Of a stretch of DNA of 64,000 nt, positions 14,761-22,768 are shown one piece after another. The notes beneath the pieces were generated by a model. It was given only the letters and a program-made list of their open reading frames with translations. It was not told where the DNA came from and did not search any database. Source of the stretch: Actinoplanes sp. L3-i22 (GTDB taxonomy: Bacteria; Actinomycetota; Actinomycetes; Mycobacteriales; Micromonosporaceae); NCBI RefSeq assembly GCF_019704555.1, contig NZ_AP024745.1, forward strand, positions 7,448,501 to 7,512,500, given 5' to 3'. Every line of letters begins with the position of its first letter. The stretch's first letter is position 1. Position numbers and translations under genes: made by a program.

Positions 14761-17295
14761 ATGGAGCAGCATCTCGAGTGGATCCACTGCCTCGCCGACG
14801 ACGAGTTCTACGACGCGCCGGACCGCATGCGCGACCACGACAGCCGCTTCGACGCGGCGAACCGCGACGCGCCGGACGGCTGGCTGCGCGGCGAGGCCGA
14901 CCTGTGGGTCGGGCTGGAACCCGCGGCCGGCCGCGGGCCGCGGCAGGGCTGGAAGATGCACGTCTCGGTCACCCTGGACGACGCGCCCGGCTGCCTCGAC
15001 CTGGTCTGGGAGTACTGCGTGGCCAACGAGCTGGCCTTCAAGTTCCTGCGCAGCCTGGACGCCATGGTGGTGCTCAACGCCAAGTACGCGGGGCGTGGCT
15101 CGAGCGGGAAGCTGGTCACCTTCTACCCGCGTGACGAGCAGCAGTTCGAGAAGGCGATCACCGACCTGTCCGTGCTGCTCGACGGCATGCCCGGCCCGTA
15201 CGTGCTGGGCGACCTGCGGATCGGCGCGGGCCCGCTGTACGTCCGCTACGGCGCCTTCACCCAGATGTGGTGCCCGGGTGAGGACGACGAGCCGGTGCTC
15301 GCGATCGAGAACGCCGACGGCGAGCTGGTGCCCGACCGCCGCGGGCCGGTCTTCCAGGTGCCGCCGTGGGTCGAGCTTCCGCAGATCCTGAAGCCGCATC
15401 TGGAGGCCCGGCACGCCGGCGGCCCGATCGACTTCCCGTACCGGGTGGAGGAGGCCCTGCACTTCTCCAACGCGGGCGGCGTCTACCTGGCCCGCGACGC
15501 GGCCGGCGAGAAGGTGGTGTTGCGCGAGGCACGCCCGTACGCCGGCCTGGATCGTAATCACGAGGACGCGGTCGCCCGGCTGCGCCGCGAGCACCGGACG
15601 CTGACCCGGCTGGCCGGGCTCGGCTGTGTCCCGGCCGTCCACGACTACCGGATCGTGCAGGGCCACCACTTCCTGGTGGAGGAGTACATCGAGGGGCCGA
15701 CGCTGCTGCGCGCGGTGCAGACCCGGGGCCCGGCCCTGTTCCCGGACACGCCGGCCGAGACGAACGCGGCCGAGCTGGCGGAGTACCGGCGCTGGGTGCT
15801 CGACGTGCTCGACCGGGTCGAGGCGGCGCTGGACGACATCCACGCGCGCGGGATCCGCTTCGGTGACCTGCATCCGTCCAATGTGCTGCTGGGCCCCGGC
15901 GGCCGGGTGGTGCTGATCGACTTCGAGTTCGCCGCCGAGCTCGACGACGACCGGCCGCCCGGGCTGGGCGCGCCCGGCTTCGCCGCCCCGGCCGGGCTGA
16001 CCGGCGCGGCGATCGACGACTTCGCCCTGGACAGCCTGCGGGTGTTCCCGTTCATGATGCTGACCCCGCTCCTCGACCGGACCCGGGCCAAGGCCGGGAC
16101 CCTGGTCGAGGAGGCGACCGGCACGATGGGGATGCCCGCGCGGTTCGGCGCGGCGCTGCTCCGCACGTACGAGGTGCCGGAGGGGCTGGACGAGGCGGCG
16201 CGCTGGTTCGCCGGCGCCGACCCGTCGTGGCCGCGCATCCGGGACTCGATCGTCGCCGGCATCCACGCCGCCGCCACGCCGGAGCGCGACGACCGGTTGT
16301 TCCCGGGCAGCCCGGCACAGTTGGGCACCGGCGGCTTCGACCTGTCGTACGGCTCGGCCGGCGTCCTGTTCGCCCTGCACCGGGTGGGCGCGCCGATCCC
16401 GGCGGAGTACCTCCGGTGGACCGCCCGCGCGGTCGAACGGGCGCAGCCCCGGCCGGCCCAGGGCCTGTTCAACGGCCCGCACGGCGCGGCCGCGGTGTTC
16501 GCGGCGCTCGGCCGGCGCGACGAGGCGCTCGCCGCGCTGGAGGTGGCCCGCCGGTTCGACCGGCTGCCCACCTCGGACACGCTCGCCGCCGGCCGGGCCG
16601 GGCGGGCGCTGAACCTGCTCGGCCTGGCGCGGCTCACCGGCGACGACGCGGTGCGCGCGGAGGGCCTGCGGACGGCCGTGGAGATCGGGCGGCGGGTCGA
16701 GGCGGGCACCGCCGCGCTGCCGGGTCACGGGCTGCTGCGCGGGCCGTCCGGGGCGGCGCTGCTGTTCATCCGGGCCTACGAGCAGACCGGGGAGGACCGC
16801 TACCTGGACTGGGCCCGGCGGGCGCTCGAGCAGGACCTCGACGTCGGCCAGACCCGCGACGACGGGTCGTTCCAGCTCGCGGTCGGCAGCAAGCATCTGC
16901 CGTACCTGGACGGCGGCAGCGGCGGGGTCGCGCTCGTGCTGCACGAGTACCAGCGCCACCGCGACGACACCGACGTGTGGCACCTGCTCACCGGGATCCG
17001 GCTGGCCTGCAAGGCGCCGACGGTCTACCAGAGCGGGCTGTTCACCGGGCGGGCCGGGTTCATCGCCGTGCTGGCCCGGCTGGGCCACGACGAGGACCGG
17101 GCCGCCATCGGGCAGCACGTCCGGCGGCTCGGCTGGCACGCGCTGCTGCGCGGCGGGGACCTGGTGTTCCCCGGGGACCAGCTGTTGCGGCTCTCGCTGG
17201 ACCTGGCGACCGGGTCGGCGGGGGTCCTGCTCGCGCTGCGCGCGGCGTTCGACGGCGCCACCGGTGTCCTGCCGTATCTCGACCACCGGGTGTGA
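14761..17295 (+). CDS. lanKC: class III lanthionine synthetase LanKC
   Basis: 844 residues in the three-domain LanKC order. Residues 1-200 are the phosphoserine/phosphothreonine lyase, with GWKMHV at 63-68 and LNAKYAGRGSSGK around 105-117. Residues 225-480 are the kinase, with catalytic loop RFGDLHPSNV (Asp369, Asn374) and metal-binding DFEF (Asp387). Residues 520-844 are a LanC-like barrel with seven glycine-rich turns such as GPSGAALL and GSGGVALV. The barrel lacks the Cys-Cys-His zinc ligands, as is normal for class III. The position I would align to the ATP-anchoring lysine reads Arg (VVLREARPY). It dehydrates Ser/Thr in the precursors encoded just downstream and may cyclise them. The ATG is preceded by AGGA. 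Start of the lanthipeptide operon. Confidence 0.93.
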   Translation: MEQHLEWIHCLADDEFYDAPDRMRDHDSRFDAANRDAPDGWLRGEADLWVGLEPAAGRGPRQGWKMHVSVTLDDAPGCLDLVWEYCVANELAFKFLRSLDAMVVLNAKYAGRGSSGKLVTFYPRDEQQFEKAITDLSVLLDGMPGPYVLGDLRIGAGPLYVRYGAFTQMWCPGEDDEPVLAIENADGELVPDRRGPVFQVPPWVELPQILKPHLEARHAGGPIDFPYRVEEALHFSNAGGVYLARDAAGEKVVLREARPYAGLDRNHEDAVARLRREHRTLTRLAGLGCVPAVHDYRIVQGHHFLVEEYIEGPTLLRAVQTRGPALFPDTPAETNAAELAEYRRWVLDVLDRVEAALDDIHARGIRFGDLHPSNVLLGPGGRVVLIDFEFAAELDDDRPPGLGAPGFAAPAGLTGAAIDDFALDSLRVFPFMMLTPLLDRTRAKAGTLVEEATGTMGMPARFGAALLRTYEVPEGLDEAARWFAGADPSWPRIRDSIVAGIHAAATPERDDRLFPGSPAQLGTGGFDLSYGSAGVLFALHRVGAPIPAEYLRWTARAVERAQPRPAQGLFNGPHGAAAVFAALGRRDEALAALEVARRFDRLPTSDTLAAGRAGRALNLLGLARLTGDDAVRAEGLRTAVEIGRRVEAGTAALPGHGLLRGPSGAALLFIRAYEQTGEDRYLDWARRALEQDLDVGQTRDDGSFQLAVGSKHLPYLDGGSGGVALVLHEYQRHRDDTDVWHLLTGIRLACKAPTVYQSGLFTGRAGFIAVLARLGHDEDRAAIGQHVRRLGWHALLRGGDLVFPGDQLLRLSLDLATGSAGVLLALRAAFDGATGVLPYLDHRV

Positions 17296-17342
17296 CACCA
17301 CATCCGGAAGCTCCGGGGGAGGACGGGAAGGGGGTGAACGCA

Positions 17343-17450
17343 ATGGTGAACGTATTGGATCTGCAGTCCCTGCAGGTCGAGGGCTTCGCCCCGTACTGCC
17401 CGAGCAACAAGTCGGTGGTCATCGTGGTGACCACGTTCCGCCTGGCGTGA
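17343..17450 (+). CDS. lanA1: class III lanthipeptide precursor 1
   Basis: A 35-residue peptide. The leader MVNVLDLQSLQVEGF carries the LDLQ box that class III synthetases recognise. The C-terminal core YCPSNKSVVIVVTTFRLA contains Cys19, Ser21, Ser24, Thr30 and Thr31. The Ser-x-x-Ser-hydrophobic stretch matches the SapB core, but the position of the ring-closing Cys (residue 28) is Val, and the only Cys stands before the first Ser. The start is ATG 17343, placed 7 bases after GAAGGGGGTG, the same layout as the second precursor. It begins 47 bases after the synthetase stop, and a small CCGGA-AGC-TCCGG hairpin lies between them. Confidence 0.88.
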   Translation: MVNVLDLQSLQVEGFAPYCPSNKSVVIVVTTFRLA

Positions 17451-17496
17451 CAGCGCACCGGGCGATCCCAGCGGACGCGCAGAGGAGGTGAACAAC

Positions 17497-17604
17497 ATGG
17501 CGAACGTTCTGGACCTGCAGGCGATGCCGGCTCCGAGCTTCGAGCCGAGCTGCCCGAGCAGCAAGTCGGTGATCATCATCGTGACCAACTTCCGCACGGC
17601 GTGA
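17497..17604 (+). CDS. lanA2: class III lanthipeptide precursor 2
   Basis: A 35-residue paralogue of precursor 1. The leader is MANVLDLQAMPAPSFEP with the same LDLQ box, and the core is SCPSSKSVIIIVTNFRTA with Cys19, Ser21, Ser22, Ser24 and Thr30. It shares with precursor 1 the CPSxKS block, four to five branched aliphatic residues, and the TxFRxA tail. Again no Cys follows the second Ser. GAGGAGGTG precedes the ATG by 7 bases, a very strong ribosome-binding site, so high expression is expected. It is co-directional with precursor 1, 46 bases away, and clearly a tandem duplicate that has diverged mostly in the leader. Confidence 0.9.
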   Translation: MANVLDLQAMPAPSFEPSCPSSKSVIIIVTNFRTA

Positions 17605-17647
17605 CCACACGCCCCGGACCGACCCACTCGCGTGCACGGAGGTAGCC

Positions 17648-17740
17648 ATGTTCCACGTGCTCGACCTGCAACAGCTGCCGCTCTCCGGCGGCGAGGACGA
17701 GATCAAGTGTCCCAGCCACGTTTCCATCATCGTGGCGTGA
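17648..17740 (+). CDS. lanA3: class III lanthipeptide precursor 3 (short form)
   Basis: A 30-residue peptide. The leader MFHVLDLQQLPLSGGEDE has the LDLQ box and a more acidic end. The core is KCPSHVSIIVA, with Cys21, Ser23 and Ser26. It ends exactly where a SapB-type ring would have its Cys: the last residue, Ala30, occupies that position. It keeps the CPSxxS-aliphatic pattern but lacks the TxFRxA tail of the other two. GGAGG ends 5 bases before the ATG. It lies 43 bases after precursor 2, and a strong hairpin follows the stop. Confidence 0.85.
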   Translation: MFHVLDLQQLPLSGGEDEIKCPSHVSIIVA

Positions 17741-17746
17741 CGTAGT

Positions 17747-17777
17747 GGCCGCCGGTGCGCTCGCCGCGCCGGCGGCC
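17747..17777 (+). terminator. strong hairpin between precursors and exporter (terminator or attenuator)
   Basis: GGCCGCCGG at 17747-17755 pairs perfectly with CCGGCGGCC at 17769-17777. The pairing continues inward through a G-U and GCG/CGC, giving a stem of about 13 bp with a 5-base loop. It begins 7 bases after the last precursor stop and ends 29 bases before the MFS start. No T-tract follows, as is common for actinomycete hairpins. It probably reduces read-through or stabilises the upstream mRNA, so that peptides are made in excess over the transporter. Confidence 0.6.
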
Positions 17778-17806
17778 CCTGCCGCGCCCGGATCGGAGGT
17801 GACCAC

Positions 17807-19024
17807 ATGCTCGACACACCCGCCCATCCGCCGCTGCGGCGCAACCGCGACTTCCGGCTGATCTGGCTCGGCGGCGTCCTGGCCGGGCTCGGCTCGATGA
17901 TCGGCAACCTGGCCATGCCGCTGCTGGTGCTGCACGAGACCGGCTCACCGGCGAAGGCCGGGCTGCTCGGCACGGTGTCGGCGGTGACGGTGCTGATCGT
18001 CATCATCCCGGCCGGCTCGATCGTCGACGCGACCGAACGGCGCCGGCTGATGATCCGCTGCCAGGTGGCCGGCTCGCTGATCGCCGCGGTGATCGCGGTG
18101 TTCGTCCTCGCCGGGCATCCGGTGCTGGTCCTGCTGCTGATCGCCACCGCCGTGGTGAGCGTGCTGGGCAGCCTCTACACGCCGGCGTCCAGCGCCCTGC
18201 TGCGCGACGCCGTGCCGGCCGGCCAGCTCGGCCTGGCGATCTCCCGGCTGCAGGCCCGGACCGCGGCGCTGCAGATCGCCGGCCCGCTGATCGGCGGGGC
18301 GCTGTTCAGCCTCGCGCCGGCGCTGCCGTTCGGCGTCCGCGCGCTCGCGCTGCTGGGGTCGGTCGTCTGCCTGCTCCTGCTGCGGACCCGCTCGGCGCCC
18401 GGGCCGGCCGACGGCAGCCCGATGACGCTGGGCAGCCTGACCGCCGGGTTCCGGTTCGTCTGGGGGCACCGCTACCTGCGGGTCGTCCTGTTCGTCTACG
18501 GCGCCGGCCTGACCGCCGTCTACAGCGCCGTAATGCTGGTGGCGATCAGCGCCAGCGCGGAGCGGGATCCGAGCGGACGCTCCAGCGGCCTGCTGGTCGC
18601 GGTGGTCGCGGTCGGCTCGCTCGCCGGGGCGCTGCTGGCGCCCCGCCTGGGCACCCCGCGGCATCCGCGGCTGCTGACCGTGCTCAGTTGCTGGGCGTTC
18701 GCGGCGGCGATCCCGGTGCTGGCGCTGCTGACCCGGCCGGCCGCGATGGGCGCGGTGCTCGGCGCCGCGATGTTCCTGTCCGCGATCGGCAACGTGGCCT
18801 TCGAGACCGAGATGATCCGGCTCACCCCGTCCGACCTGATCGGCCGGGCCGAGGCGGGCGCCATCTTCATCTCGCTGCTGGCCCAGCCGCTGGGTCCGCT
18901 CGGCGGCGGCCTGCTGGTCGAGAACCTCGGCTCCCGGCCCGCTTTCGTTCTGCTCGGTGGTGTGGTCGCCGTGCTGGCCACCCTGCTCACGGTGTTCCTG
19001 ATACCTCGAACCCGGTCAATATAG
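17807..19024 (+). CDS. MFS exporter of the lanthipeptide cluster
   Basis: 405 residues with 12 predicted membrane helices. The N-terminus LRRNRDFRLIWLGGVLAGLGS is the typical start of MFS efflux pumps (macrolide-efflux/enterobactin-exporter group). SIVDATERRRLMIRCQ is the loop-2 motif. The start has GGAGGTGACCAC before the ATG, the same style of ribosome-binding site as the precursors. Class III lanthipeptide loci normally carry ABC exporters, so an MFS protein in that position is unusual. It may export the mature peptides or confer self-protection. It is followed after 39 bases by the regulator gene. Confidence 0.85.
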   Translation: MLDTPAHPPLRRNRDFRLIWLGGVLAGLGSMIGNLAMPLLVLHETGSPAKAGLLGTVSAVTVLIVIIPAGSIVDATERRRLMIRCQVAGSLIAAVIAVFVLAGHPVLVLLLIATAVVSVLGSLYTPASSALLRDAVPAGQLGLAISRLQARTAALQIAGPLIGGALFSLAPALPFGVRALALLGSVVCLLLLRTRSAPGPADGSPMTLGSLTAGFRFVWGHRYLRVVLFVYGAGLTAVYSAVMLVAISASAERDPSGRSSGLLVAVVAVGSLAGALLAPRLGTPRHPRLLTVLSCWAFAAAIPVLALLTRPAAMGAVLGAAMFLSAIGNVAFETEMIRLTPSDLIGRAEAGAIFISLLAQPLGPLGGGLLVENLGSRPAFVLLGGVVAVLATLLTVFLIPRTRSI

Positions 19025-19063
19025 CGACTGACGCGGGCCCCGGAGCGTGGCTAGCCTGCCGGG

Positions 19064-22000
19064 GTGAACGAGGACACCGAGACGCAGGTTCGGCTGCTGG
19101 GTCCGGTCGACATCGTGCTGGGCGGCATCGATCAGCAGGTCAGCGGGCTGCGCCGGAAGGCGCTGCTGGCCGTGCTCGCCCTCCACCACCGCCAGGTGGT
19201 CGCCACCGATCAGCTCGTCGACATCGTCTGGGGCGAGGCCGCCGGATCGGTGAGCGTCAACACCGTGCAGCGGCACATCTCGTACCTGCGGGCGCTGCTG
19301 GGCGGGCGGCGGGCGGTCGTCGCCCGGCCGCCGGGCTACCTGCTGGCGCTGCCGCCCGGGGCGGTCGACGCCGGGCTCGCCGACGAGCTGGTCGACCAGG
19401 CCGGCCGGGCGGACGCGCCGGCCGACCGGGCCCGGCTCGCCGAGCGGGCACGCCGGCTGTGGCGCGGCGAACCGCTGGGCGGGGTCACCGACATCGCCTG
19501 GCTCGGGGACGCCGCCCAGCGCCTGAGCGGGCTGTTCCTGCGCGCCACCCACATCCTGATGGACGCCCGGCTGGCGCTGGGTGAGCACGCCGGCGTGCTG
19601 CCCGAGCTGGACCGGCTGGCGGCCGGCAATCCGCTGGACGAGCGCCTGCAGAGCCAGCTCATCCTGGCGCTCTACCGCAGCGGCCGGCAGGCCGACGCGC
19701 TGGACCGCTACCGGCGGCTGCGCCACACGCTCGCCGAGGAGCTGGGCATCCTGCCCAGCGGCGAACTGCGCGAGCTGGAGACGGCGATCCTGCGCCAGGA
19801 TCCGGCGCTGGCGCCGCCGCGGCCGGCCGTCGCCGTCCGGCCCGCCCCGAGCGCACCGCAGCCGCCCCGGCCGGGCCTGGTCCGGCTCACCGGCACGCCC
19901 GTGGTGGGCCGGGCCGGCGAGCTGGCCACGGTCCGGGCCGCGGTCGAGTCGGTGGCCCGCGGCCACGGGGGCGCGATCTTCGTGCTCGGCGAACCCGGGA
20001 TCGGCAAGAGCCGCCTGGCCACCGAGGCGGCCGGGCTGGCCGAGCGGGCCGGGCTCACCGTGCTGCGCGGCCGGTCCGCGACCCCGGAGGCCCAGTTCCG
20101 CGCGCTGGCCGAGGCGTTGCAGTCGGTGCTGCGCCGCGCCGGGGCGCCGGCCGGGCCGGAGCTCGGGCCGTACCGGCCGGCGCTGTCGGTGCTGGTCCCG
20201 GAGTGGCGCGACGAACGCGGGCCGGCCTCGGACACCTCCCTGGTGGTGCTGGCCGAGGCGGTGCTGCGGCTGCTGGCCACGGTGGGCCGGCCGCACGGCT
20301 GCGTGCTGATCGTCGAGGACCTGCACGACGCCGACGCGGACACCCTCACCGTCCTGGACTACCTGATCGACAACCTCGGCCGGGAGCGGCTGCTGGTGAT
20401 CGGCACCAGCCGGGCCACGCCGGGCGCCGCGCTGAACCTGATCCGCACGGCCCAGCACCGGCGGGTGGCCACCGTCGCCGACCTGGGCCGGCTCGGCGAC
20501 GACCAGGTCCGCGACCTGGCCGCCAACTGCCTCGGCGTGGACGCGAACGAGGTGCCCGGCCCGGTTATCGAACGCCTGCTGGCCACCGCGGACGGCGTGC
20601 CGTTGCACGTCGAGGAGCTGCTCGCGGCGATGGCCGGCGACGGCGTGCTGGCCTGGACCGGCACCGGCTGGGCGGTGACCGGGCCGGTGCCGGCCGGCGT
20701 GCCGGCGAGCCTGCGGACCACTCTGGTCGGCCGCACCGACCGGCTCGGTCCGGCGGCGGCCGGGCTGCTGCGGGCGGCCGCCCTGTTCGGCCGGCGGTTC
20801 CCGGCGGTGGCCGCCGGCGCCGCCGCCGGGCTGTCCGGCCCGGACCTGATCGCCGGCCTGCGGGAGGTGGTCGACAGCCAGCTGGTGGTGCCCGAGGACG
20901 ATCCCCAGTGGTACGCCTTCCGGCACGTCCTGACCGCCGAGTCGCTGCTCGCCGTCTCGCTGCCGCTGGAGCGCGCGGCGCTGGCCCGGCGCGCCGCCCA
21001 GGCGCTGGAGAGTCCGCCGGTCCCCCACTTCGACGGCACCGACCAGCTCGCCGGGACACTGTGGAGCATCGCCGGGGAACCGGTGCTCGCCGCCGAACGG
21101 TTCGCCCGTGCCGGTCGCCGGGCGATCGGGCAGGGCGCCGTGTCGACCGCCGTCACGCTGCTGGAACGGGCCGCCGGGCTACTGGCCGGCGACTGCACCG
21201 GCGACACCGCGCTGGAGGTGCGCGAGGCGCTGATCGACGCGTACGCGATCGCCGGCCGGGTCGCCGACGCCTACCCGATCGGCGACCGCCTCGACGAGCG
21301 GGCCGCCCCGCACCGCCGGGCCCGCCTGCACCTGCGACTGGCCCACGTCGCCGTCGCCGCCGGGCACTGGGAGCGCGGCTCGCGGGAGTTGTCCGCCGCC
21401 CGGCGCGCGGCCGGCGATGCCCCCGACCCCGGCCTGACCGCCCGGATGGACGAGGTCCAGGCGCAGCTGGCGTTCGGCGATCCGGCCACCCCGGACCGGC
21501 TGGCCACCACGGTCGCACTGGCCGGGCGGGCGCTGCGCGGCGCCCAGGCGGCCGGCCTGCCCGAGGTGTCCTGCGGCGCGCTCAAGACGCTGGGCCGCTG
21601 CGCCCGCCTGCGCGACCTGGCCGAGGCCGACGACCTGTACGAACGGGCGCTGGCCATCGCGACCGAGCACCACCTGCTGACCTGGCGGATCACCCTGCTC
21701 TACAACCTGGGCGCCGGCCACGGCATCCGGCACGCCGACGACAGCCGGCTGCGCGAGGCGCTCACCCTGGCCACCGAGGCCGGCGCGGTCGCCACCGCCC
21801 TCGACATCCGGCTGGAGCTGTCCATCCTGCGGCTGTGCCGGGGCGAGTTCGAGGCGGCCGACGCCGACGCCCGGCACTGCGAGGAGACCGCCGGCCGGCT
21901 GCGGCTGACCCTGACCCAGCAGATCGCGGTGGGCGTGCGCGCGATCGTCGCCGGGCACCGCGCCCGCCGCGCCGACCTCGCCGCGCTGCTGGCCCGCTTC

Positions 22001-22768
22001 GCCGGGCTCGGCGCCGCCGACGACGACTTCTCGTCGGCCACCCACGGCCTCGGGACCGCGTTCTGTCACCTGCTGCACGAGCAGCACGGGCCGGCGCTGG
22101 CCGAGCTGGACGAGGCGAGCGCCCGGGAGGCGCGGCAGCCGACGCCGTACCTGTCGCTGATCCACGGCCCGCACCTGCTGATGTCCGTGCGCGCCGGGCG
22201 GGCCGGCGCCGCCGAGTGCGCCGCGTTCGCCGGGTCCGCACAGCAGCAGGCCGCCTGGAACCGGCAGTTCCTGGTACTCGCCGAGGCGTTCGTGCACGGC
22301 CGGGCCGGCCGTGCGGACGACGCGACCCGGGCGGTGGCCCGGTTCCTGGCGGTCTCCGCGCCGTACCCGCTCGCCCGGCACCTCGGGCTGCGGCTGGTCG
22401 CGCAGGAGGCGCTCGACGGCGGGTGGGGTGACCCGGTGGCCTGGCTGCGCACCGCCGACACGTACTTCCACGACGCCGCCCCGCACGTGGCCCGGGCCTG
22501 CCGCGACCTGATGCGCAAGGCCGGCGCCCCGGTGCCGCAACACCGCCAGGGCAGCGCCGCGCTGCCCGCCCGGCTGCGCCGGCACGGTGTCACCGTCCGC
22601 GAGTACGAGGTGCTGGACCTGGTGGTGGCCGGGATGACCAACCAGCAGATCGGCGACCAGCTCTACCTCTCGTCGCGGACCGTCGAGAAGCACGTCGCCA
22701 GCCTGCTGGCCAAGACCGGCGCCGAGCGACGTGGCGCCCTGGCCGCCTTCACCCGCGAATCTGGGTAG
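19064..22768 (+). CDS. large SARP-AAA-LuxR hybrid regulator of the lanthipeptide cluster
   Basis: 1234 residues. Residues 1-95 are an OmpR-like winged helix and 96-245 the bacterial transcriptional activation (BTAD) helices, as in SARP/AfsR proteins. An AAA/STAND ATPase follows with Walker A LGEPGIGKSRLA near residue 310 and Walker B CVLIVEDLHDADAD. About 550 residues of helical repeats come next. The last 65 residues are a LuxR HTH (TVREYEVLDLVVAGMTNQQI, then SSRTVEKHVASLLAK). It therefore has DNA-binding domains at both ends. Standard LAL regulators have only the C-terminal one, AfsR only the N-terminal one. The start is GTG 19064. Its position at the end of the cluster suggests pathway-specific activation. 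Confidence 0.85.
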   Translation: MNEDTETQVRLLGPVDIVLGGIDQQVSGLRRKALLAVLALHHRQVVATDQLVDIVWGEAAGSVSVNTVQRHISYLRALLGGRRAVVARPPGYLLALPPGAVDAGLADELVDQAGRADAPADRARLAERARRLWRGEPLGGVTDIAWLGDAAQRLSGLFLRATHILMDARLALGEHAGVLPELDRLAAGNPLDERLQSQLILALYRSGRQADALDRYRRLRHTLAEELGILPSGELRELETAILRQDPALAPPRPAVAVRPAPSAPQPPRPGLVRLTGTPVVGRAGELATVRAAVESVARGHGGAIFVLGEPGIGKSRLATEAAGLAERAGLTVLRGRSATPEAQFRALAEALQSVLRRAGAPAGPELGPYRPALSVLVPEWRDERGPASDTSLVVLAEAVLRLLATVGRPHGCVLIVEDLHDADADTLTVLDYLIDNLGRERLLVIGTSRATPGAALNLIRTAQHRRVATVADLGRLGDDQVRDLAANCLGVDANEVPGPVIERLLATADGVPLHVEELLAAMAGDGVLAWTGTGWAVTGPVPAGVPASLRTTLVGRTDRLGPAAAGLLRAAALFGRRFPAVAAGAAAGLSGPDLIAGLREVVDSQLVVPEDDPQWYAFRHVLTAESLLAVSLPLERAALARRAAQALESPPVPHFDGTDQLAGTLWSIAGEPVLAAERFARAGRRAIGQGAVSTAVTLLERAAGLLAGDCTGDTALEVREALIDAYAIAGRVADAYPIGDRLDERAAPHRRARLHLRLAHVAVAAGHWERGSRELSAARRAAGDAPDPGLTARMDEVQAQLAFGDPATPDRLATTVALAGRALRGAQAAGLPEVSCGALKTLGRCARLRDLAEADDLYERALAIATEHHLLTWRITLLYNLGAGHGIRHADDSRLREALTLATEAGAVATALDIRLELSILRLCRGEFEAADADARHCEETAGRLRLTLTQQIAVGVRAIVAGHRARRADLAALLARFAGLGAADDDFSSATHGLGTAFCHLLHEQHGPALAELDEASAREARQPTPYLSLIHGPHLLMSVRAGRAGAAECAAFAGSAQQQAAWNRQFLVLAEAFVHGRAGRADDATRAVARFLAVSAPYPLARHLGLRLVAQEALDGGWGDPVAWLRTADTYFHDAAPHVARACRDLMRKAGAPVPQHRQGSAALPARLRRHGVTVREYEVLDLVVAGMTNQQIGDQLYLSSRTVEKHVASLLAKTGAERRGALAAFTRESG

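Follow-up and report, generated by a model that had tools for sequence, protein, structure and literature searches.

Genome-mining papers describe type III lanthipeptide cores as SxxSx2-5C or Sx2Sx3C, with the Cys after the dehydrated residues (PMC11251773, PMC7268733). A different arrangement is described for subfamily C of Streptomyces, in which peptides with one Cys and a CxSxxS motif are encoded in clusters containing LanM and LanKC, together with a Cys-free peptide (PMC11251773, 2024). As a computational prediction, these peptides were suggested to be substrates for a "reverse labionin", and the same paper counts 46 single-Cys type III peptides with neither motif (PMC11251773). The noursin/LanKC-Hbt system is also class III with one Cys, as is the system described here. 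However, the noursin Cys is located downstream (residue 15) and noursin contains a His-butyrine crosslink (PMC10206099). Copper binding of the noursin type was considered for the His in sister peptides (AHPC) and was dropped, since the noursin Cys is downstream.

In the window, a 64,000-nt stretch of the genome (12.0 Mb, single contig) of the soil actinomycete Actinoplanes sp. L3-i22, three class III precursors carry their Cys upstream of S-x-x-S. The frames, coordinates, and letters that the original prediction gave for them are all correct. Judged by gene content, the locus is a compact class III lanthipeptide cassette with LanKC, three paralogous precursors, and an MFS transporter (Table 1). 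The intergenic gaps are 47 nt between LanKC and peptide 1, 46 nt between peptides 1 and 2, 43 nt between peptides 2 and 3, and 66 nt between peptide 3 and the MFS gene. A purine-rich stretch that can act as a ribosome-binding site is located 5' of each precursor start. The adjacent regulator is possibly cluster-situated. It can travel with LanKC, since it is retained next to LanKC in Actinoplanes liguriensis (locus L040). Its counterpart in Actinoplanes cyaneus is just a 31% match at another place, and no homologue was found in L094 (Herbihabitans) or L096 at E 1e-10.

Table 1. Features of the lanthipeptide locus (window positions; precursor gene coordinates include the stop codons).
Feature	Position	Strand	Basis or remark
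LanKC, class III lanthionine synthetase, 844 aa	14761..17295	+	RamC-type lyase, kinase, zinc-less LanC-like cyclase
Precursor peptide 1, LDLQ leader, 35 aa	17343..17450	+	ORF and RBS; aligned with 7 relatives
Peptide 1 core motif CPSNKS	17397-17414		
Precursor peptide 2, 35 aa	17497..17604	+	ORF and RBS; alignment with relatives
Peptide 2 core motif CPSSKS	17551-17568		
Precursor peptide 3, 30 aa	17648..17740	+	ORF and RBS; alignment with relatives
Peptide 3 core motif CPSHVS	17708-17725		Peptide stops four residues past second Ser
MFS transporter gene, probable exporter	17807..19024	+	Pfam MFS_1, MFS_3
BTAD/AAA/LuxR regulator gene, adjacent	19064..22768	+	Pfam

Peptides 1, 2, and 3 (MVNVLDLQSLQVEGFAPYCPSNKSVVIVVTTFRLA, MANVLDLQAMPAPSFEPSCPSSKSVIIIVTNFRTA, and MFHVLDLQQLPLSGGEDEIKCPSHVSIIVA, in this order) all have an LDLQ leader. 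Each contains one Cys (C19, C19, and C21), two residues ahead of the first core Ser in a C-P-S-x-x-S motif, and no Cys downstream. CxSxxS with a single Cys is thus found in 3/3 peptides, and the SxxSx2-5C core of canonical SapB/AmfS or labionin precursors in 0/3. A position check confirmed that the expected Cys position, four past the second Ser, is V, I, and A in peptides 1, 2, and 3, and that peptide 3 terminates there; its core consists of ten residues with one Cys and two Ser. When the residues after LDLQ were shuffled, CPSxxS appeared in all three peptides in 0/20000 trials. The NCBIfam models lanthi_III_a (best 14.2 bits, cut-off 30) and lanthi_III_b (13.8 bits, cut-off 22) did not reach their cut-offs on these peptides. 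Unlinked further precursors were not found in the host genome, where the next match beyond the known three had an E of 1.1. In a library of open-licence papers, neither the exact core strings of these families nor VTSY together with "class III lanthipeptide" was found.

SapB/AmfS-type systems share with the window the same NCBIfam equivalog LanKC, the LxLQ leader, and the S-x-x-S pair. However, their Cys lies past the second Ser, as the original prediction held, in 43/43 counted precursors of the canonical (SapB-like) side of the LanKC tree, whereas the sole Cys of the window peptides lies two residues before the first Ser. An ABC pair is annotated beside LanKC in L102, L103, and L107; the window has an MFS gene instead. 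A conserved family with the upstream Cys only falls outside the SxxSx2-5C and Sx2Sx3C motifs. It opens the direction of ring closure by a metal-free cyclase to direct testing. Its peptides may close a ring opposite to the direction described for class III.

Relatives of LanKC were collected by an exact-peptide-pattern search of 84,980 species genomes, which gave 35 loci, and by whole-genome searches with E limits of 1e-100 to 1e-220. The latter covered overlapping sets of 354 genomes of the family, 397 of the order, and 396 of the phylum, as well as 297 genomes of the family of Herbihabitans rhizosphaerae (G595) and 392 genomes of the genus to which G774 belongs. This genus is probably Streptomyces, since its G1389 contains the LanKC of Streptomyces sp. 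man185. A. cyaneus (G020), A. italicus (G034), and A. philippinensis (G047) were counted as the window's genus. In these searches, LanKCs more than 53% identical to that of the window came from A. cyaneus (85%), H. rhizosphaerae (61%), and A. liguriensis (two scaffold pieces, 83 and 87%). CPSxxS cores beside LanKC were sought in other genomes and are present in the first two of these species. All precursors there, four in A. cyaneus and one in Herbihabitans, read CPSxxS[VI][VI], and the MFS gene is next in both loci as well. Nine further proteins of the window's 12-row LanKC clade, 55-73% identical, are known as proteins alone.

The eight precursors from the window, A. cyaneus, and Herbihabitans were aligned, and all of them (8/8) share M1, L, D, L, Q, C, P, S, and S. 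Directly ahead of the Cys, the residue differs among the precursors (Y, S, K, H, Y, S, K, T). Such variation beside invariant C, P, S, and S is what a mature end beginning at the Cys would predict. Three orthologous precursor pairs keep the same codons for C, P, S, and S; their pooled dN/dS of 0.52 indicates weak constraint overall and is uninformative alone. The CPSxxS design is more than chance, and its presence in 8/8 precursors of three species is a stronger test of this, beside the shuffling. As far as sequences tell, conservation across species speaks for function, not decay. The original prediction had also favored a functional design, from consistent loss and gain in the three paralogues. 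The conservation supports a functional design; a loss and gain in the three paralogues is not supported.

Based on these features, we propose that the LDLQ leader docks on LanKC and that the kinase and lyase domains would convert both invariant Ser residues (Ser21/Ser24; Ser23/Ser26 in peptide 3) to dehydroalanine. The zinc-less cyclase would let the upstream Cys thiol attack a dehydroalanine located C-terminal to it, giving a small Cys-first ring. This ring could span six residues, from the Cys to the second Ser, or three residues with the Pro inside, from the Cys to the first Ser. The enolate may be captured by the other dehydroalanine to form a "reverse labionin", since the S-x-x-S spacing matches the labionin of canonical members. 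The idea of a reverse ring is not wholly new, as "reverse labionin" was already proposed for the CxSxxS Streptomyces peptides (PMC11251773, 2024). Class III leaders are removed by an endopeptidase plus an aminopeptidase (PMC12328550). Leader trimming would halt at Cys-Pro, and a Cys-Pro end may block the aminopeptidase. The MFS protein would then export the short hydrophobic peptide.

In our best explanation, LanKC dehydrates both Ser residues and the upstream Cys closes onto one of them, as a lanthionine or a "reverse labionin"; we give this reading about even chances. Dehydration of the serines is probable, a Cys-first ring is roughly evenly balanced, and a reverse labionin is a tentative suggestion that we find rather unlikely. 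We infer dehydration, the N-to-C direction of ring closure, the ring partner, trimming, and export from the identity of LanKC, its lyase and kinase residues, the invariant C/P/S/S, the constant Cys-Ser spacing, and the co-occurrence with MFS. What the DNA itself shows is the cassette, the residues that do not vary, the complete set of lyase residues, and the MFS link. Synthetases of types I, II, IIa, and IV "occasionally" use Cys-first motifs (C*[ST]), which speaks for this explanation (PMC11251773). Against it, SxxSx2-5C is the pattern given for the substrates of type III cyclases (PMC11251773). A ring from the Cys to position i+2 across the Pro would be strained. The absence of the beta3 Lys in LanKC, the dN/dS of 0.52, the A. 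liguriensis draft, and L036, which has no MFS gene and altered lyase residues, are also counted against the best explanation.

The Cys could instead lie in the leader and be removed with it, so that the dehydrated peptide would have no Cys. The eight-precursor alignment does not reveal a conserved cleavage site, which would be compatible with such removal. However, the Cys and Pro are invariant in 8/8 precursors while the preceding residues vary, and we regard a leader Cys as improbable.

The window LanKC scores 918.6 bits with NF038151 (cut-off 575) and 363.5 bits with the class IV model (cut-off 650). Pfam detects RamC_N and LANC_like, with Pkinase at 31.3 bits, slightly below the cut-off of 31.7. 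The lyase residues described for ThurKC (K65, H67, K94, K108, K117, D152, R163, and R191, ThurKC numbering; PMC10604976) are all retained (8/8), and the kinase catalytic-loop D/N and DFE are present. The columns of ThurKC S726, F770, and D771 read D, F, and T in the window LanKC. These are the zinc ligand columns, which makes this a metal-free cyclase. It keeps the Phe that is important in ThurKC (PMC10604976), and the remaining cyclase positions vary throughout the family.

The kinase pocket is unusual. In an alignment of 67 LanKCs that excludes L036, L041, and L026, the beta3 Lys is absent from 28/28 enzymes on the window side of the tree (R 15, L 7, S 3, V 3; Arg255 in the window). It is present in 38/39 on the canonical side and in the solved LanKC chains compared, although it is not a stated criterion for the class III family. 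With Arg255 in place of this Lys, full kinase activity is not certain. Furthermore, an Arg has been gained three positions ahead of the catalytic Asp (R366 in the window) in 26/28 window-side LanKCs vs 0/39 canonical-side LanKCs, a distribution that makes the gain look like compensation, not decay. A relocated ATP-site cation, with the beta3 Lys lost and a catalytic-loop Arg gained, is possible, and the finding directs attention to a LanKC subclade whose kinase pocket is unusual. An altered kinase might also give little or no dehydration, and the peptides would then carry another modification, such as phospho-Ser or one made by an unlinked enzyme. The uniform lack of the beta3 Lys favors this idea, and a radical SAM gene is found near some loci of other subfamilies. 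However, the window enzyme keeps the catalytic-loop D/N, DFE, and all eight lyase residues, Arg366 looks compensatory, and no radical SAM gene is present among the window flanking genes scanned. We therefore consider another modification unlikely.

The LanKC tree contains 78 rows (quick IQ-TREE, midpoint root). By SH-aLRT, the sole support measure, the 45-row branch has a value of 98 and the window's 12-row clade one of 100. On the window side, 32/34 distinct precursors have C-x-S-x-x-[ST] past the leader, 14 without and 18 with a later Cys. L036 was placed on this side by its leader and is in no tree; the counts without it are 31/33 and 13. The 14 upstream-only precursors are the eight CPSxxS ones, L074 (NCISWYSIAITRN), L023, L028, L029, and L075 (with a core such as NCISVLSVV among these four), and L036. 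Examples of window-side precursors with two Cys are AHPCNSIVTSYKGTC and WPCFSYITTFDCP, and the two precursors that lack the motif belong to L010 (FCVCVWTIVSSWA) and L055 (EAHSCSPLCMEV). Sister peptides align gap-free with those of the window in reading C-x-S-x-x-[S or T]. On the canonical side, CxSxx[ST] is found in addition to the downstream Cys in 9 of the 43 precursors. Outside the precursor count are L026, L038, L041, the plasmid loci L101-L108, one spurious ORF each in L083 and L057, repeated peptides, and loci without a seen precursor.

This pattern makes the upstream Cys a trait of the window-side LanKC subclade and the downstream Cys the variable part. The original prediction of a Cys "moved" to the other side was therefore not borne out. 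The midpoint-rooted tree allows an ancestor with a single Cys as well as one with both. An ancestor with both, of which the window lineage lost one, is therefore just one option; midpoint rooting nests the two-Cys group, and upstream-only groups branch earlier. No weight was given to a LanKC tree that had a very long outgroup as its root.

The spacing also bears on whether the Cys forms a ring at all. The Ser residues may be dehydrated while the Cys stays free, in which case the peptides would act as thiol monomers or disulfide dimers. Each peptide has a single Cys and none at the canonical position, and NorKC with the Cys blocked or changed to His still dehydrates without forming rings (PMC10206099). 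However, 32/34 precursors keep the C-x-S-x-x-[ST] spacing exactly, a constraint that a free thiol would not impose, and we find this option rather unlikely. Extended to the whole LanKC subclade, the Cys-first reading would have the Cys close onto the second dehydroalanine, with the first one then trapping the enolate to form a labionin with a backwards sulfur arm, together with the relocated ATP-site cation and, in most upstream-only members, an MFS exporter. This broader version is speculative and rather unlikely, much like the reverse labionin. If true, no system of the backwards-labionin type would be leaner than the CPSxxS peptides in the window.

The MFS protein of the window is 85% identical to that of A. 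cyaneus, 59% to that of L094 (Herbihabitans), and 40% to that of L096. Among loci with at least 1.3 kb of flank on both sides, a homologue of it is found in 8/9 upstream-only loci vs 0/51 others. With at least 3.5 kb on both sides, the counts are 5/6 vs 0/16 (Fisher p 2e-4), for loci that are related and hence not independent. The sole exception is L036, in which the motif is present, the MFS gene is absent, and the lyase residues are altered. L055, which lacks the motif, has a weaker MFS match (32%) downstream in the longer stretch L098.

The PCxSxx[ST] family, found in Streptosporangium, Nonomuraea, Streptomyces, and some Actinoplanes, resembles the window in its side of the tree, in a gap-free upstream C-x-S-x-x-[ST], and in having no beta3 Lys. 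Unlike the window, it keeps a later Cys. We know of no name for this family with an added downstream Cys. The MFS homologue was not found in it, and the two two-Cys loci scanned, L012 and L016, have an ABC transporter. Short precursors with the upstream C-x-S-x-x-[ST] plus a later Cys are widespread (L011-L021, L027, L031, L035, L037, L045, L046, and L090-L093), and the LanKCs beside them lack the beta3 Lys where checked. Within 10 kb, a radical SAM gene is found in L012 and a P450 gene in L018.

Four loci, L023, L028, L029, and L075, look like members of subfamily C as described in PMC11251773. In L023, L028, L029, and L100 (the L075 region), CxSxxS precursors with an EAH stretch before an LDLQ-type motif are located beside MFS and LanKC genes; all but L023 have, in addition, a radical SAM gene and large regulators. 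L100 encodes a LanM (DUF4135, 399 bits), which is separated from LanKC by about 5.5 kb containing two regulator genes, and no LanM was found among the 10 genes scanned (about 10 kb each) of L023, L028, and L029. The window shares with subfamily C the single Cys, CxSxxS, and the class III synthetase. The window differs in having no LanM and, in the flanking genes that were scanned, no radical SAM gene. It also differs in having CPS instead of C[IV]S, no EAH leader stretch, three paralogous precursors, and a distinct LanKC branch.

A whole-genome search of the host with PF05147 gave LanKC plus one LanC-like place 4.8 Mb along the contig only, with the control found in 2/14 genomes. A LanM should be detectable in this way, since the LanC domain of the L100 LanM scores 90.8 bits. 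The PF13575 search of the host genome was empty, as was its control. By these sequence comparisons, the Pro-containing, LanM-free, MFS-linked family of the window is a branch separate from subfamily C. The one LanC-like place of the host genome outside LanKC is a separate cyclase (G000:C1:2652326-2653444), perhaps of a class I lanthipeptide locus.

A counter-result comes from A. liguriensis, in which the LanKC pieces of L040 and L033 are 83-87% identical to the window. In L040, the DNA jumps from the LanKC end (window 17282) to window 18976, which falls within the final codons of the MFS gene, and continues into the regulator gene, 74-85% identical in pieces. When L040 1-2200 was compared with window 16901-19500, the LanKC end adjoined the regulator, and the precursors and nearly the whole MFS gene were absent. 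Precursors beside LanKC were not found in L040 or L033 of this draft assembly, and of the MFS gene the L040 draft has nothing beside LanKC except the last codons. The scaffold contains runs of N and two stretches that resemble a sequencing adaptor, and because of these an assembly collapse is possible. The result may reflect either a true loss of the cassette or a collapsed, gapped assembly, and it does not touch the odds for the ring chemistry.

The missing genes would also suit a relic, in which decay removed the downstream Cys and left behind peptides that are not modified; the precursors are short and peptide 3 is without most of its tail. However, the same design is found in three species of two genera with LanKC and MFS genes intact, and the C, P, S, and S codons do not change within the three orthologue pairs. 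We regard decay as very improbable.

Plasmids carry more distant LanKCs, as all 19 plasmid records with LanKC are below 60% identity to that of the window. In the eight plasmid loci examined (L101-L108), the beta3 Lys is present in seven, with the motif not found in L106, and none of them has a match to the window MFS. L106, on a Streptomyces virginiae plasmid (LanKC 38%), has a YcaO gene directly after LanKC, followed by two ABC transporter genes; an LxLQ precursor was not found in the short stretches searched beside LanKC. On the canonical side, the precursors of L022, L025, L077, and L084 have an upstream C-x-S-C pair ahead of the final Cys, with the cores CISCLSLTVC, CCSCLSVTLC, CCSCVSLLAC, and CCSCCSTPSLFLC. 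These C-x-S-C precursors are a possible link between both designs.
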